Shown: positions 4,838 to 30,548, counted from the stretch's first letter. The stretch is DNA of 64,000 nt from Candidatus Poribacteria bacterium (GCA_958295945.1 OY282386.1:2369864-2433863); one strand, 5' to 3'. Program-made: numbers and translations. The notes: generated by a model not told the origin, from the letters alone.

Positions 4838-6574
4838 TTAATTGCTTCCTACCAGACGTTGCGCCTTCATCTTTCTCTTACGTTTAGACTTATTATTAGC
4901 CGGTTTTGTTCGGTTTTCTTTTGTTTTGTCTATCTGTTTCAGTTTCTTCCGTTTTTCATCCTCTAACTTTTGCTGTTGTTCTGCTTCGTATTCTGCATAA
5001 TTTCCGTTAAAAAAGTGCGTTTTCGTTCCCTCTTTTGTTCCCTCAAAAATCAACATTTTGGTCGTCAGATTATTCAGCAAATAACGGTCATGTGAAATAA
5101 CAAAAAGCGTTGCTGGAAACTGTGCAAGTGATTTCTCAAGTGCTTCACGTGCAGAAATATCAAGATGGTTTGTCGGCTCATCAAGAAGAAGGACATTAGC
5201 CTTTTCCAATAACAACTTCGCTAATTGAACGCGACTCTGTTCGCCCCCACTTAGATTCCCAATCCGCTTAAACACATCATCACCAGAAAACAGGAACTTT
5301 GCTAAATAACTTCGCACCTCAAAAGGTGTTTTTTCTGGACAAAGTTCAGAGACTTCTTCAAAGATTCCGTTCTCTGTGTTGAGACCTTCCAACTCTTGTG
5401 TGTAATACCCAAATTTGAGGGTGGGACCGACCCACATTTCACCTTGGGTAGGCTTTTCCTGTCCCAAAATCATACGGAACAAGGTAGTTTTTCCAATACC
5501 GTTCGGTCCAATTATTCCAACGACATCTCCACGGTCTACCTCAAAATTAAGACCCGTGAATAAAACTTTATCACCAAACTGTTTTCCAACATTATGACAC
5601 CTTAATATATCGTTTCCACCGCGCGTTCCTTGTGTAAAGTTCAGTGCCACTGTTGCTGCATCAGGTTTCGGTTTATCTATCTGTTCCAGTCGCTCTAATC
5701 TTTTCCGTCTCCCTTGTGCCTCACGAGTTCGCTGTCCTGCTATATTCCGATCAATAAACTTCTGTTCTTGTGCTATAAACGCTTGTTGCATTTTGAAAGC
5801 ACGCGCATCAACGAGTCGCTCAACATTCTTTATTTCAAGGTACTTAGAATAGTTACCACGATAGATATTGATTTCCGATTCTGCAAGTTCCCATACTTTC
5901 CTGACAACCTTATCTAAAAAATACCTGTCGTGAGAAACAACAAGCACACCACCTCTATATTCTGTATTGAGATAATTCTCTAACCACTGAATTCCATTAA
6001 TGTCCAGATGATTCGTTGGCTCATCAAAGAGCAGAAGATCGGGTTCTTCAAGAAGGAGTTTTGCTAGGGTTGCTCTACTTTTTTGACCGCCACTCAGAAC
6101 GTTAACCGGCAAATTGAAGTCTTGCTGGTGAAAACCTAATCCCCCGAGTACACGATTAATCCTGTGCTCATAGTCATATCCTCCCAGTCGTTCATGTTTT
6201 TCTTGAAGATGGGAATATTCTTGCAAGAGTTGAGGAGTTTCCTGAGACTCCATCTTTTCTGCAAGTATGAGCATTTTATCTTCTAAGTCAAGCCGTTCTT
6301 CAAAAACCTTGAGCATCTCCTGTTTTAAAGTACATCCACGGTCTAACTCAGGTTCTTGACTCAGATACCCTATACGGATACCTTTTGCTACAACAACATC
6401 ACCTTTAATGTCAGTGAGCATGCCTGCTATAATTTTAAGTAACGTGGTTTTCCCACATCCGTTACGACCAATTAGTCCAATTCTGTCTCCAGGCGCGATT
6501 GCGACAGAAATTTCATCCAATATTATGTCCGGGTCATAGCGTTTTGTGACTTCATTTATTGTAACTAATGACAT
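4838..6574 (-). CDS. ABC-F family ATP-binding protein (ribosome-associated type)
   Basis: Two ABC ATPase domains occur in one 578-residue chain with no membrane segment, the hallmark of ABC-F proteins, which act on ribosomes. Domain 1 has Walker A GRNGCGKTT (36-44), signature LSGGQKSR and DEPTNHLD. Domain 2 has GPNGIGKTT, LSGGEQSR and DEPTNHLD. A charged inter-domain linker with a QAFIAQEQKFIDRNIAGQRT segment matches the P-site tRNA interaction region of Uup/YdiF-like members, and a lysine/arginine-rich tail ends the protein. I cannot assign a subfamily. It is transcribed towards the MarR-fusion gene and separated from it by 113 nt. Confidence 0.93.
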   Translation of the reverse strand: MSLVTINEVTKRYDPDIILDEISVAIAPGDRIGLIGRNGCGKTTLLKIIAGMLTDIKGDVVVAKGIRIGYLSQEPELDRGCTLKQEMLKVFEERLDLEDKMLILAEKMESQETPQLLQEYSHLQEKHERLGGYDYEHRINRVLGGLGFHQQDFNLPVNVLSGGQKSRATLAKLLLEEPDLLLFDEPTNHLDINGIQWLENYLNTEYRGGVLVVSHDRYFLDKVVRKVWELAESEINIYRGNYSKYLEIKNVERLVDARAFKMQQAFIAQEQKFIDRNIAGQRTREAQGRRKRLERLEQIDKPKPDAATVALNFTQGTRGGNDILRCHNVGKQFGDKVLFTGLNFEVDRGDVVGIIGPNGIGKTTLFRMILGQEKPTQGEMWVGPTLKFGYYTQELEGLNTENGIFEEVSELCPEKTPFEVRSYLAKFLFSGDDVFKRIGNLSGGEQSRVQLAKLLLEKANVLLLDEPTNHLDISAREALEKSLAQFPATLFVISHDRYLLNNLTTKMLIFEGTKEGTKTHFFNGNYAEYEAEQQQKLEDEKRKKLKQIDKTKENRTKPANNKSKRKRKMKAQRLVGSN

Positions 6575-6598
6575 ATTTTAACTTGTTATGGGATGCCC

Positions 6599-7534
6599 TT
6601 AAGCATGTTTTAGTCTTATTGATTGCCAATTGGCACTTCGTTTAATCATTTCAAAATACTTATCGGCACTGCTTTCATCAGGATGACGGATATTAAATTG
6701 TCTAAATCTCCAGAATGCAACACATAAAGCTGCATAATGAACATAACTATCTAAACAGTCCCATTCACCATCTGTCAGTGGACGGTCTGTATTGTAAGCT
6801 TCTAAGAAAGCACCCACCGATGCAGTATCCAGTTGATGTTGCACCGTATAACAACATCCAATGATTGTCATAGCAACATCTATAAGCATTGTATCATAAC
6901 ACACTTCCTCAAAGTCAAGAATTGCAACCATTTTGTCCTCGTCAAAAAGGGTGTTATCTAAAAAAAGGTCTCCATGTAGTAATCCTGTCGGTAGCGGTTT
7001 GTCCAATTCAGGTCTTATCCACTCAAGTTCTGACTTAAGCCACGTTACAAAGGGATGTTCAGCAAACCGAGTATCTCTCACCTGTTTCAGAAATGGAGTA
7101 ATCTCAGTTACACCCATCGGGAAACATAGAAGTTCTGGAAGCGGAGGAATAGCATGCAGAGTTGCTAACGCATCTCCAATCTGAGTTGATACCTTCTGGG
7201 ACGGTTGTGGAGTGCCTCCATTCAAAAACGGATAAATCATAACATTGTAGTCATCGGAAATATAAAGTGCTTCGTCGTTTCTTTGCAAAATTGGGTATAC
7301 AGTAGGATATGAATGATTATGCAAATGATCCAATAAAGATACCTGTTTATGAAGTTGGTCAAGGTTTTTTTCATCACATATTTTAAGGAGAAATACACCT
7401 TCTGTCGTTATTACTTTGAAGTTGCTGTTACCATATCCACCGTGTATATCTTCCAACTTCACTGGTGTGCCAATCTCATAGTCCTTCAAAATCTTCGCGA
7501 GTTCTTCTGTGGTAAGGGTCGTATACTGTGGCAT
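6599..7534 (-). CDS. Homoserine kinase type II-like phosphotransferase
   Basis: This is a 311-residue aminoglycoside-phosphotransferase-fold kinase. The N-terminus (YTTLTTEELAKILKDYEIG, then the GGYGNSNFKV nucleotide loop) and the catalytic segment LLHGDLFLDNTLF followed by AILDFEEVCYDTMLIDVAM closely match ThrB2-type homoserine kinases, which phosphorylate homoserine on the way to threonine. The catalytic Asp and Asn of HGDLFLDN and the Asp of LDFEE are present. Choline or ethanolamine kinase-like activity is an alternative. It sits 24 nt upstream of the ABC-F gene with no threonine genes around it. The ribosome site is weak. Confidence 0.78.
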   Translation of the reverse strand: MPQYTTLTTEELAKILKDYEIGTPVKLEDIHGGYGNSNFKVITTEGVFLLKICDEKNLDQLHKQVSLLDHLHNHSYPTVYPILQRNDEALYISDDYNVMIYPFLNGGTPQPSQKVSTQIGDALATLHAIPPLPELLCFPMGVTEITPFLKQVRDTRFAEHPFVTWLKSELEWIRPELDKPLPTGLLHGDLFLDNTLFDEDKMVAILDFEEVCYDTMLIDVAMTIIGCCYTVQHQLDTASVGAFLEAYNTDRPLTDGEWDCLDSYVHYAALCVAFWRFRQFNIRHPDESSADKYFEMIKRSANWQSIRLKHA

Positions 7535-25768: not shown

Positions 25769-27325
25769 TCATTTGCCCTTCACAGAAATAATGGCATGGA
25801 ACGCATTGATGTTTCCTTTGCCACTGAACCACGTACCTGTTGCCCCCATTCGAAAGACTTTACCTTTATCAAAGTTATATTCTATTTTTCCCTTCTGTCC
25901 GGTAGGAATATCCCACACAGAAGTCAGTGCCTGTGTTGGCATCCCATGTTTTGGTAACTCTGTGTCATGATCAAAAAGATCAAACGATCCACCACATATT
26001 GCATTCCCCATACGGATGTCAATTGTAAGGATACCACCATTCTCATAGGATGTCGTATCAATGGTAATCACATTGTAGTCTTGGTTTCCGTATTTAGGTG
26101 CGCGAAGTATGTGCAGCACTTCATCAGTCGGTTTTTCGTCATTGATAACAACATTAGCACCTGTTAATAACGGATCTGATGTGCTTGGATTGAAACCAGG
26201 GAATCTCACATCTATTGAGTCTTTCAGAAACGAGAGGTAGCCCTCCTCCTCAGTAATGTTCTTTTCATAACAATCATCAAAGAACTCATTCAAAGGTAGT
26301 TTTCCCATTACGTCAAGTTCAGGTGAAATAACTAAGCAATCAACTGGTGAATGTTCTTGCCAACCCTCCATAATTGCTTTTGCTAAAGGTTGCATTCTAT
26401 TGAAGGGTTTGACTAATTCCTTCCGTCTATTAGACATATAAGCGCGTTTTCTGGGTGTGCGTTCTAATTCAACATTCGAAACCCAGACATTAATAAAATT
26501 GTCATTCAGAAATTCTATTACTTTGTCATCCGAGAGGACACCTGCCCTCAATCCTTTGCCACTCCCTCAGCATGATTCATCCTTTAATGGTCCGTCTGTT
26601 GAGATGATATGAATGAGTTTGACCTGATCTTCTGACAACTCTATTGCCTTAAATGGAGAAACCCAATTAATTTGCTCTGATTTGTAGAAACATAATGTTA
26701 GCGTGCGTTCTGCTGTTTCTTGTGTAATCTCCTCTTTAAAATCAGTGTCTTGTAGTATATTTTCTGTTCCTGTTGTCAGTTCTATTTGAGAACAGAAGCC
26801 AGCGTCAGCACTGTCCCAGTTTATATCCAAATTCACTGTTCCTTCAGGAACGTACATCTTAAAGAAAGCAATCTGTTGATTATGTCTATCAACTATCAGG
26901 TTTCCAGCAAACTGTGAAGGTGTTAACCAACCACCATCTAATTTGAACTCCGCGTGAATACGAAACGCAATATCAGCATATCTATCATTGTAAGCGCGTA
27001 GACATGTCCATAAACCACGAGAATCTCCTGAATCAATGTGCATGTCCAAATTTGGCTCTGGATTCAACTGCTGAAGTAATTCCAACACACCCGTTTCCTC
27101 TATTTTCCAACACTCACCAACCGAAACCGATTCTGATGGTAGAAATGAACGAAAGATTGATGTCTGATATTGCTTTTCAGGTTCAACAACTTGCAAGTTT
27201 GCCAATGCTTCCCATTCTATATGAAAATGGGATAGTGTATGCTCAATAGGTGTGATAACACCTTTGATAGATACATTTCCATGATCCTTGAGATTGAGAG
27301 TGATTCTGTTAGATGGTATATCCAC
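25769..27325 (-). CDS. Putative selenoprotein, thioredoxin-like C-terminal domain (copy 3; in-frame TGA at 26567-26569)
   Basis: This is read as one 518-residue protein with Sec253 encoded by TGA directly after Cys252 (DESC-U-GSGKGLRAGV). Without recoding it would split into two frames of 252 and 260 codons. The downstream one would have to start at a TTG without a ribosome site, in the middle of a conserved block. Residues 1-210 form a domain I do not recognise (IEWEALANL, EPEKQY, CLRAYND, FRIHAEF, SQFAG). Residues about 215-300 look thioredoxin-like: INWVSPFKAIEL, KLIHIISTDGPL, the Cys-Sec pair, then LSDDKVIEFLNDNFINVWV. A third region with VISPELDVMGKLPLNEF follows. The GTG start has GGAG 9 nt upstream. 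It is the last of three tandem paralogues. Confidence 0.82.
26534..26549 (-). promoter_or_regulatory. SECIS-like hairpin of selenoprotein copy 3
   Basis: Seventeen nt after the TGA the mRNA can form GAGGGC-AGGU-GUCCUC, a 6-bp stem with a 4-nt loop whose second base is G. The loop begins 24 nt after the TGA. This agrees with what is known of bacterial SECIS elements, which are short, lie in the coding region just downstream of UGA and have a G in the first two loop positions. Confidence 0.7.
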
Positions 27326-27328
27326 TTG

Positions 27329-28867
27329 TTAATTCTCCTCTACAGAAATTTTTGCTTGATAGGCGTTTATGCTGCCCTTTTCGTTAGATGCCCATCCCAT
27401 GCCAACCAGTTTGTATATTTGTCCTCGTTCAAATTGATGTGTCATTTGACCAATTTCGCATGGATCATACCAACCTATGTCGTGTGCACCATCAAACATG
27501 GTACCATCTGGTCATTTATTATCAGCATCAAAGGATAGTTTATGCTCAGCATCAAGTAGAAAGAACGAACCGGACGCTTTATCGTTACCCAATTCTATAT
27601 CTATAGTCAGTGTGCCTTTGCTCTTAAATGCAGTCGTATCAATAACAGCAACGGTATAATCCTGATGTCCAAATTCTGGTGTGCGAAATACGTCTAACAC
27701 TGTCCGTGATGGATTATCGGGTGTGAGAACAATATTTCCTAATCCTGGGAGTTTTCCTGATAGAGAATCTTGAAGAAACAACAAGTAATTTTCACTTTCA
27801 AGCGTGCCGTCTTCACGTCTGTTTTCTCCAAGGTATTCATTGATCGGGACATGTCCTATTGCTTCAAGTTCTGGAGATATAATCCAAGAGTCGACTGGAC
27901 CTCTACGCCATTTATGACCGATGATAGTCCAAGCTAAGGGGTACACTTGTTGAAATCCCAATGTATCACGCATTTTTCTCAACTCAATAGTACGTATCCA
28001 TGTGTTGATATAATTTTCATTTAGATAATTGATAATTCTTTCATTGGAGAGGACAACTGCCCTCAAGTTTTTTCCGCTGCCTCAGCACGCTTCATCATCA
28101 AGCGGTCCATCTATAGACAATGCATGGATCGGTTTCTGATGTGCCTGTGCTAATTCTACTGCGTCCTCAAAGGGAACCCAGTTTATTTGCTCTGATTTGT
28201 AGAATTGTTTTATTAGTTTCTTTTCTGCTTCTTTTTGTGTAATAGATAAAGCAAATTCTATATCTTTCTGAATATCTCGCGTGCCACCATATAGTTCAAT
28301 TTTTGGACATACACCGGAAGCTGTACTATAGTAATGGTTTGGATCGTCTTTATCTTTTTTCCAATTAACATCAAACCATTTTCCTTCAGGAACACGCTGT
28401 TGAAAAGAAACGACATCCTGTTTGTTCCTGTCAATAATAAGATCTCCTGCAAAATGAGAAGGCGTGAACCATCCATCTTCTAATTGAAATTCCGCATGAA
28501 TGCGAAACACAATATGAGCATGTTGATCATTATATGCACGTAGACATGCCCACACCCCAGCGGAATCTCCAATATTAATATGCATATCCAGATTTGGGTT
28601 GGGATTCAATTGTTTGAGAAGCTCCAACACCCCATTTTCTTCAATCTGCCAACAATCACCGATAGCAACAGGATCATTGGGAAGAAACGCTTGGAAAACC
28701 GTTGTGTTATATTCTTTCTCTGGTGCGTTTACACACATATTCGCCAACGCATCCCATTCTTCATGAAAGTTTGGACGCATGTTTTCAATCGGTGCGATGT
28801 AGCCTTTGACTGTAAATTTTTTATTACTACTCAGATTAAGCGTGATTTTGTTTTGTAAAGTGTTCAT
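27329..28867 (-). CDS. Putative selenoprotein, thioredoxin-like C-terminal domain (copy 2; in-frame TGA at 28082-28084, second TGA at 27512-27514)
   Basis: This is a paralogue of the genes on either side, 512 residues if both TGA codons are read through. The first TGA encodes the conserved Sec262 after Cys261 (DEAC-U-GSGKNLRAVV). The N-terminal domain keeps EWDALAN, EPEKEYNTTVF, CLRAYND, FRIHAEF, then INWVPFEDAVELAQAHQKP leads into the Cys-Sec loop. A second in-frame TGA at residue 452 follows LSFDADNK; beyond it the homology to the C-terminus of the other copies resumes in frame (QFERGQIYKL, GSINAYQAKISVEEN). That site has no Cys or Sec in the other copies, so it is more likely a nonsense mutation or sequencing error. 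The ATG at 28867 follows the stop of copy 1 by one base, with GAGGA upstream. Confidence 0.78.
28049..28064 (-). promoter_or_regulatory. SECIS-like hairpin of selenoprotein copy 2
   Basis: Seventeen nt after the conserved TGA the mRNA can form GAGGGC-AGUU-GUCCUC, the same stem as copy 3 with one loop change that keeps G at the second loop position. Confidence 0.7.
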
Positions 28868-28868
28868 C

Positions 28869-30446
28869 TCAATTGTCCTCAACAAAAATCCTTGCCTTAA
28901 AGGCATTTGTGTTGCCTTTCTCACTTCTATAGTTACACCCTGTTGCACCCAACTTAAAAAACTGTCCTTGTTCAAAATGATACGTAAGTTGTCCGGTTTC
29001 ATTAGGTTCAAGCCACGTCCGTGCAAGTACCATGTCTTTCGTAACTCGTTCAGTTGTAGGTAGATCGTCGTCGCCATCAACTAAATAGAAATAGCCATCT
29101 GCATCGGCTCTACCAGTCTCAATATCAATAGTAAGCGTGCCACCATTTTCAAACGCTCTCGTATCAATTACGACTACGGTGTAATCAGCAAAACCAACTA
29201 CTGGTGACCGGAAAACATCCATGACCTCCTGAGCAGACACCTCACTGTACAGGATTATATTCCCCAACCCAGGCTGTTTTCCATCTAAACTATCCTTAAA
29301 AAATGTTAGGTAATACTCTTCTCTTAAGTGTTTATTAAGTTTAATATCGTCGTGAACTTCACTAATGGGTTGTCTACCCATCAATTTAAATTCCGGAGAG
29401 ATAACGAAGCAATCTACCGATGAGCCTTTTTTTGATCCTGTTTTCCATCCCTTGATAATCGCTTGTGCCAACGGATTGCTTGTGTCATAGGTTTTACCCT
29501 CGTGCTCACGTCTTTTAGCAATCGGTTCTCGTAAACTAATAATACGCCCTAAATCGGCATTGCCTACCCAGATATTGATAAAATTATTGTTTAAAAACTC
29601 AATGATATGCTCATTTGCCAGGACACCTGCCCTGAAGTGTTTCCCACTCCCTCAGCAAGACTCGTCGAAGAGCGGTCCATCTATTGAGATCGCATGGATC
29701 GGTTTCTGTTGCGCGGGTGCCATTTGCAGTGCTTCTTCCAGTGGTACCCAGTTAATTTGCTGCGATTTATAGAAGGAGCGTATCAATTTTTGTTCCACTT
29801 CTTCTTGTGTAATAGATTCTGTGAATTCAATATTTTGCACAACATCTTCTATTCCTGTCTGAAGTTCCATATTTGGGCAGAAACCTACATCCGTAATGTG
29901 TCCCTCCTCGTTTGGATCAATTTTCCATTTAGCACCAAAGTTTAGAGTGCCTTTAGGAAGGGACATCTGAAAATAGGCAACCGATCTTTTGATTCTATCA
30001 ATAACAAGATGTCCCGTAAACTGTGATGGCGTGAACCAACCGTCCTTTAGGTCAAATTGTGCATGGATGCGGAACACAATGTCCGCGAATTCATCGTTGT
30101 AAGCACGTAGGCATGCCCACAGTCCTTGAGATTCGGTTTTACGGTACTGCAAATCCGCACGCATACTCAGCGTTGGATTCGGATGAAATTGCTTCAGCAA
30201 CTCCAGAGCACCCGCATGCTCAATCTCCCAGGGCACACCGATAGAGACGGTTTCCTTAGGGAGGAAACCACAGAAAATTGAAATGGGATACTGTTTTTCT
30301 GGCTCAGCAACGCGCAGGTTTGCTAATGCATCCCATTCAACATGGAAGTTATAGGAAGTATACTCAATCGGAGCGATGAAACCTGTGATAGGGACTTTTT
30401 CATCACCGTCAAGACTAATCGTGATTTTTTCTCGTAAAGGACTCAT
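28869..30446 (-). CDS. Putative selenoprotein, thioredoxin-like C-terminal domain (copy 1; in-frame TGA at 29652-29654)
   Basis: This is the first gene of the tandem triplet, 525 residues with Sec265 after Cys264 (DESC-U-GSGKHFRAGV). The frame is open on both sides of the TGA. Downstream, the residues GVLANEHIIEFLNNNFINIWV match the same segment of the other copies although no start codon with a ribosome site lies near the TGA. N-terminal blocks VEWDALANL, EPEKQYPISIF, CLRAYND, FRIHAQF and SQFTG match too. The ATG at 30446 has GGAGAATCT directly before it. No signal peptide is seen, so it is probably cytoplasmic. I infer a redox enzyme using a vicinal Cys-Sec pair; the substrate is unknown. 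Confidence 0.82.
29619..29634 (-). promoter_or_regulatory. SECIS-like hairpin of selenoprotein copy 1 with compensatory pair
   Basis: The stem is CAGGGC-AGGU-GUCCUG. Compared with the other two copies the outer pair has changed from G-C to C-G on both sides, keeping the stem although the change alters an amino acid (Leu to Phe) on one side. Distance from the TGA and loop G are the same as in the other copies. Confidence 0.75.
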
Positions 30447-30548
30447 AGATTCTCCACAACAGAAATTAATCGTATCCACTTATACACATTTTTGGATGCA
30501 GTTTTGCTGATGTATGGGGAAAAGTGAAATGAGTTCTAAAGATAGATG

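Follow-up and report, generated by a model that had tools for sequence, protein, structure and literature searches.

The stretch of DNA analysed here (the window, 64,000 nucleotides (nt) long, from the first letter of which all positions are counted) belongs to a metagenome-derived genome of a sponge-associated member of Candidatus Poribacteria, a single contig of 5.34 Mb. On its minus strand lie three adjacent paralogous genes, g3, g2 and g1, akin to the selenoprotein N (SELENON or SEPN1) of animals, each with an internal in-frame TGA directly after a Cys codon. With TGA read as selenocysteine (Sec, U) the frames encode 518 (g1), 512 (g2) and 525 (g3) residues, at 48-49% identity to g1; the segment DES/DEA-C-U-GSGKxxRAxVL aligns without gaps in the three proteins, and the alignment holds over their full length. 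The initial annotation, made from the sequence, had pointed to three TGAs in phase at 26567, 28082 and 29652 with conserved flanks, and to translations of 512-525 residues; both were recovered, with homology along the entire translations. As read directly from the sequence, the gaps between the genes measure 1 nt (g3-g2) and 3 nt (g2-g1), and the order g3-g2-g1 is a probable operon. The features are as follows, all on the minus strand.

28869-30446, minus: g3, first gene of the cluster, SELENON-like protein of 525 residues; start ATG at 30446, Shine-Dalgarno sequence GGAG at 30452-30455, stop TGA at 28869-28871.
27329-28867, minus: g2, second gene, SELENON-like, 512 residues; start ATG at 28867, Shine-Dalgarno sequence GAGGA at 28876-28880, within the end of g3.
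25769-27325, minus: g1, third gene, SELENON-like, 518 residues; start GTG at 27325, Shine-Dalgarno sequence GAGGAG at 27335-27340, within the end of g2, stop TGA at 25769-25771.
29652-29654, minus: predicted Sec codon TGA of g3 (U265, in SCUG).
28082-28084, minus: predicted Sec codon TGA of g2 (U262, in ACUG).
26567-26569, minus: predicted Sec codon TGA of g1 (U253, in SCUG).
29619-29634, minus: g3 hairpin of the bacterial selenocysteine insertion sequence (bSECIS) type, CAGGGC-AGGU-GUCCUG.
28049-28064, minus: g2 bSECIS hairpin, GAGGGC-AGUU-GUCCUC.
26534-26549, minus: g1 bSECIS hairpin, GAGGGC-AGGU-GUCCUC.
29757-30446, minus: N-terminal SELENON-homologous domain of g3 (residues 1-230).
29259-29759, minus: predicted thioredoxin-fold domain of g3 with the Cys-Sec pair (residues 230-396).
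28872-29258, minus: C-terminal beta-sandwich of g3, without SELENON counterpart and, in relatives, common to adjacent ECF sigma factors.
27512-27514, minus: second in-frame TGA of g2, an Arg codon in the three closest orthologues.

A general reassignment of TGA, which the initial annotation had called unlikely, is excluded because TGA terminates both g1 and g3 and Trp is encoded by TGG. A contig scan with family-specific patterns retained 75 loci, all from Candidatus Poribacteria metagenome genomes. Among the related genes covering the Sec site the codon is TGA in 180 of 181, Cys precedes it in all 181, and the remaining gene has Ser; the copies are partly non-independent, owing to overlapping loci on one contig and to related genomes, although their 181 nucleotide windows include 180 different sequences. 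Such recurrence lies far beyond chance, in keeping with the earlier remark that the three TGAs are hard to explain as errors. In the exceptional copy (locus L026, about 5423-6994) Ser-Glu (TCA GAG) replaces Sec-Gly (TGA GGG) and the sequence of the bSECIS hairpin is retained; it is either a recent Sec loss or an inactive copy.

The genome from which the window derives encodes a tRNA-Sec (78 bits, anticodon UCA) with selB about 50 nt away, as well as selA and selD, that is, all four components that the initial annotation had proposed to look for. Incidentally, its selD (C1:1975016-1975942) itself has one in-frame TGA and is probably a selenoprotein. Across 85 genomes of the phylum the SELENON-like family occurs in 65 and tRNA-Sec in 73; of those 65, 58 have a detected tRNA-Sec and the seven without one are multi-contig drafts, and both occur together in all four other single-contig genomes that carry the family. 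Bins of sponge symbionts have been reported to be enriched in SelA/SelB (PMC5649159).

A hairpin with a 6-bp stem and a 4-nt loop, mostly AGGU or AGUU, is found 23 nt 3' of each TGA, with all six stem pairs formed in 160 of 179 copies. The limits given for bSECIS elements are an upper stem of 4-16 bp, a loop of 3-9 nt with G within its first two positions, a spacing of 16-37 nt and an energy of at most -7.5 kcal/mol (PMC13188914), and the hairpins of g1-g3 fall within them, the three folds having energies of -9.8, -10.5 and -16.2 kcal/mol; the g1 hairpin is the centroid structure (-8.9) and not the minimum-energy fold. In a set of 71 representatives below 80% identity, compared with 500 shuffles and with slid versions of the stem, three pairs have changed on both sides and 96.5% of the cells are paired, against at most 80% in any slid version, values above those of all shuffles and all slides. 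Synonymous choice follows the same pattern: for Arg (Arg+7) the hairpin uses AGG or AGA in 72 of 72 sequences, compared with 27% in the rest of these genes, and for Leu (Leu+11) it uses CTC in 69 of 72, compared with 18%. Kinship inflates any probability derived from these counts, the contrast being nonetheless large, and codon choice downstream of the TGA is evidently constrained at the RNA level. An Rfam scan of the cluster returned a single meaningless microRNA match, below threshold. The selenoprotein reading of the initial annotation is thus strongly supported by Sec machinery, TGA conservation, covarying bSECIS and synonymous-site constraint, and I regard it as nearly certain, on this comparative evidence, that g1-g3 encode selenoproteins. 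Of the outcomes that the initial annotation had named as refuting, neither a lack of Sec machinery nor homologues with separate halves was encountered.

The initial annotation had also presented the family as undescribed, with an N-terminal domain that could not be named. The second part did not stand, for this domain is homologous to that of SELENON; the bacterial occurrence, on the other hand, does appear to be undescribed. All 152 full-length bacterial proteins were listed by phmmer against human SELENON; the best blastp match (E 1.4e-43) has 33% identity across 327 residues, and a different one spans human residues 152-537. A hidden Markov model of 72 bacterial sequences matches the human protein with E 4e-57, none of 2000 shuffles being listed, and the profile comparison (hhalign) gives a probability of 99.9 and an E of 4.6e-31 over 322 columns. 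Taken alone, the N-terminal domain matches human 252-370 (i-E 7.8e-26) and the Sec domain human 399-515 (i-E 5.3e-29).

At the residue level, 49 human positions, spread over both domains, are retained in at least 95% of the 152 bacterial proteins. In human numbering, none of the 152 deviates at R291, G315, Cys461 or R469; Sec462 and H293 are kept in 151 each, N340 in 148, and R466 is Lys or Arg. The conserved R291, G315 and Sec462 are pathogenic positions in the human protein; G273, H293, N340 and R469 are presumably also sites of pathogenic missense change. The two domains align over human residues of about 152-587, with Sec in SCUG (g1, g3; ACUG in g2) and G-S-G-(R/K)-x-x-R after it. Judging from these alignments, the N-terminal and Sec domains of g1-g3 are homologous to those of animal SELENON. 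The bacterial form differs in several respects: the animal EF-hand is missing (by Pfam, and by an alignment that starts past the human EF-hand), as is the membrane span near the N-terminus of the animal protein of the endoplasmic reticulum lumen, the window proteins having no hydrophobic N-terminus; a C-terminal beta-sandwich is added; the genes occur as multiple tandem copies; and the SECIS directly follows the UGA, whereas that of the animal gene lies in the 3' untranslated region (3'UTR). Because the EF-hand is absent, g1-g3 are here termed SELENON homologues and not canonical SELENON.

Structure prediction agrees with a thioredoxin-like Sec domain. The AlphaFold models reach a mean pLDDT of 85, both with the entire protein and with the Sec domain on its own (pTM 0.83). 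The Cys-Sec pair is modelled just ahead of the active-site helix, the first to follow the opening core strand, an arrangement shared with thioredoxins. With the Sec domain, Foldseek returned Thioredox_DsbH, DsbH, AGR3, Rp19 and the UAS domain of UBXN7 at probability 1.00 and modest TM-scores. The best structural neighbours are Thioredox_DsbH/DUF255 (PF03190) and DsbH, although the sequence match to PF03190 is marginal (best E 0.01, in 2 of 36 members); neither is known to have Sec or the SELENON N-terminal domain. AGR2/AGR3, ERp18/Rp19 and the UBXN7 UAS domain share the thioredoxin-like fold, yet they lack Sec and the SELENON N-terminal domain and have 12-21% identity over the aligned fold. 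The C-terminal domain is predicted as a beta-sandwich with only generic structural matches. No credible match to Pfam or NCBIfam was found for the window proteins and 36 family members, and PDB sequences gave none either, whether the query was bacterial or human SELENON.

On these grounds it is very likely (roughly 93%) that g1-g3 constitute a probable operon of bacterial selenoprotein N homologues in which Sec is inserted at the internal UGA; the machinery, the recoding signal, the homology and the predicted fold can all be read from sequence. The hairpin 23 nt past each UGA would recruit SelB with Sec-tRNA(UCA), and insertion of Sec in the cell would yield the complete protein, some 520 residues long and composed of a SELENON-type N-terminal domain, a thioredoxin fold with vicinal Cys-Sec and the added beta-sandwich. 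The Cys-Sec pair may cycle between a selenenylsulfide and a reduced form; the likeliest activity would be thiol/disulfide or peroxide reduction, with a putative reductant and substrate. The expected site of action is the cytosol for g1-g3, and the outside of the membrane for those paralogues of relatives that have a signal peptide.

Several points weigh against this reading. Two of the three hairpins do not stand out from shuffled sequences in folding energy. Cys occupies the Sec position in none of the 181 copies, so that the site is deprived of an independent Cys check; SELENON in algae is likewise almost exclusively Sec-containing (PMC7539508). The gene g2 may be truncated: its TGA at 27512-27514, if real, would cost the last 60 or so residues. 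This codon was considered as a second Sec of g2 and rejected although a hairpin lies after it, since Arg is encoded there in the three closest orthologues (CGA, CGA and CGT); it is best read as a point nonsense change or a sequencing or assembly base error. The human SELENON query, the one eukaryotic sequence compared, did not come from a database; it agrees with the literature at 8 of 8 positions checked, namely D80, M85, Y86, R291, Sec462, R466, codon 315 as Gly (c.943, by arithmetic) and, in the SELENON form without the 34-residue alternative segment, C108. With neither EF-hand nor membrane anchor, the bacterial proteins need not share the part that animal SELENON plays as a calcium sensor, with its calcium-regulated redox action on SERCA. 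Finally, the selenoprotein assignment derives from nucleotide sequences and their translations.

As to origin, selenoprotein N was termed animal-specific in 2007 (PMC2375036), and a few algae have since been added to its range (PMC7539508). SELENON may be of bacterial origin and have been passed, with its recoding hairpin, to an early eukaryote, the selenocysteine redefinition element that assists the 3'UTR SECIS from just downstream of the UGA of animal SEPN1 (PMC8967691) then being a descendant of the bSECIS, which has the matching position behind the UGA; I consider such a course of events conceivable, if unlikely. Recent acquisition of the genes by symbionts from their sponge hosts is rather improbable too. 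Sponges do carry the gene, SelN being present in Amphimedon (PMC3473315), symbiont bins have the above enrichment in SelA/SelB, and within this phylum the family is limited to one order. Yet the bacterial paralogues diverge down to 28% identity, about as far as they do from the human protein (mean 30%, best 34%), and they use an in-frame bacterial SECIS, two points in favour of an old split. Rooting of the tree by human SELENON was tried and rejected, the branch being too long to place. No relatives were found in the plasmids, phages and viral contigs searched.

It is very improbable that g1-g3 are generic thioredoxin-like selenoproteins whose likeness to SELENON arose by convergence around the GSGK motif: thioredoxin folds are widespread and Foldseek yields many distant matches, but the match of the N-terminal domain to human SELENON does not depend on the active site, and the retained positions lie in both domains. 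Even less credible is a general or local recoding of the UGA to a residue other than Sec, be it Cys, Trp or some other; readthrough by itself does not tell which residue is inserted, but TGA ends other genes, Trp has its own codon, and a dedicated tRNA-Sec (UCA), selB and a hairpin within bSECIS limits are at hand. Equally implausible, the TGAs would be ordinary stops dividing each gene in two or marking its decay: TGA commonly ends genes in this genome, yet an open conserved frame follows it in all but one of the 181 copies, codon use is constrained and the Sec machinery complete, and no homologue with its halves as separate genes was seen.

The proposed operon stands among housekeeping genes (guanylate kinase, a coaBC-type flavoprotein, ferredoxin and an aconitase C-terminal-domain protein resembling leuD), and its three genes are the only family copies in the genome. 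Relatives have up to 18 per genome. In the tree the clade of the window proteins, without signal peptides, is separate from proteins with a hydrophobic N-terminus, and there is also a small divergent group. Many of the signal-peptide copies adjoin genes for ECF sigma factors that end in the C-terminal domain of the SELENON-like proteins, over their final 125 residues or so (143-168 bits), with such reading frames at about 23 loci (e.g. L045:6804-8138 and L028:7037-8362); one may guess that the domain common to sigma factor and SELENON-like proteins is a shared sensing module. No further protein with this domain besides g1-g3 was found in the genome of the window. Exported-looking WD40 repeat proteins also recur by the signal-peptide genes (L070:5093-6133 and others), and in L025, L074, L017 and others a second C-terminal domain (profile positions of roughly 391-520) stands behind the first in the read-through frame.

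The kind of protein is known, and its bacterial occurrence appears to be undescribed. The 119 selenoprotein families of prokaryotes inventoried in 2026 share with g1-g3 the in-frame UGA, the bSECIS, often a thioredoxin-like fold and in some cases a CU motif, but none of them is SELENON-like (PMC13188914, Table 1). No literature joining selenoproteins and Poribacteria was found, subscription papers and preprints lying outside the search, so that an earlier mention is possible. The family is without a Pfam or NCBIfam model, and wherever gene prediction takes TGA for a stop, its genes risk being split in two.

To sum up, the finding opens the question of where SELENON came from. SELENON is a human muscle-disease protein whose enzymology is incompletely understood and for which no solved structure was found; a soluble, anchor-free bacterial homologue with many natural variants may offer a tractable route to its structure and to the Cys-Sec chemistry, and could help to read the pathogenic positions R291, G315, Sec462 and R466.

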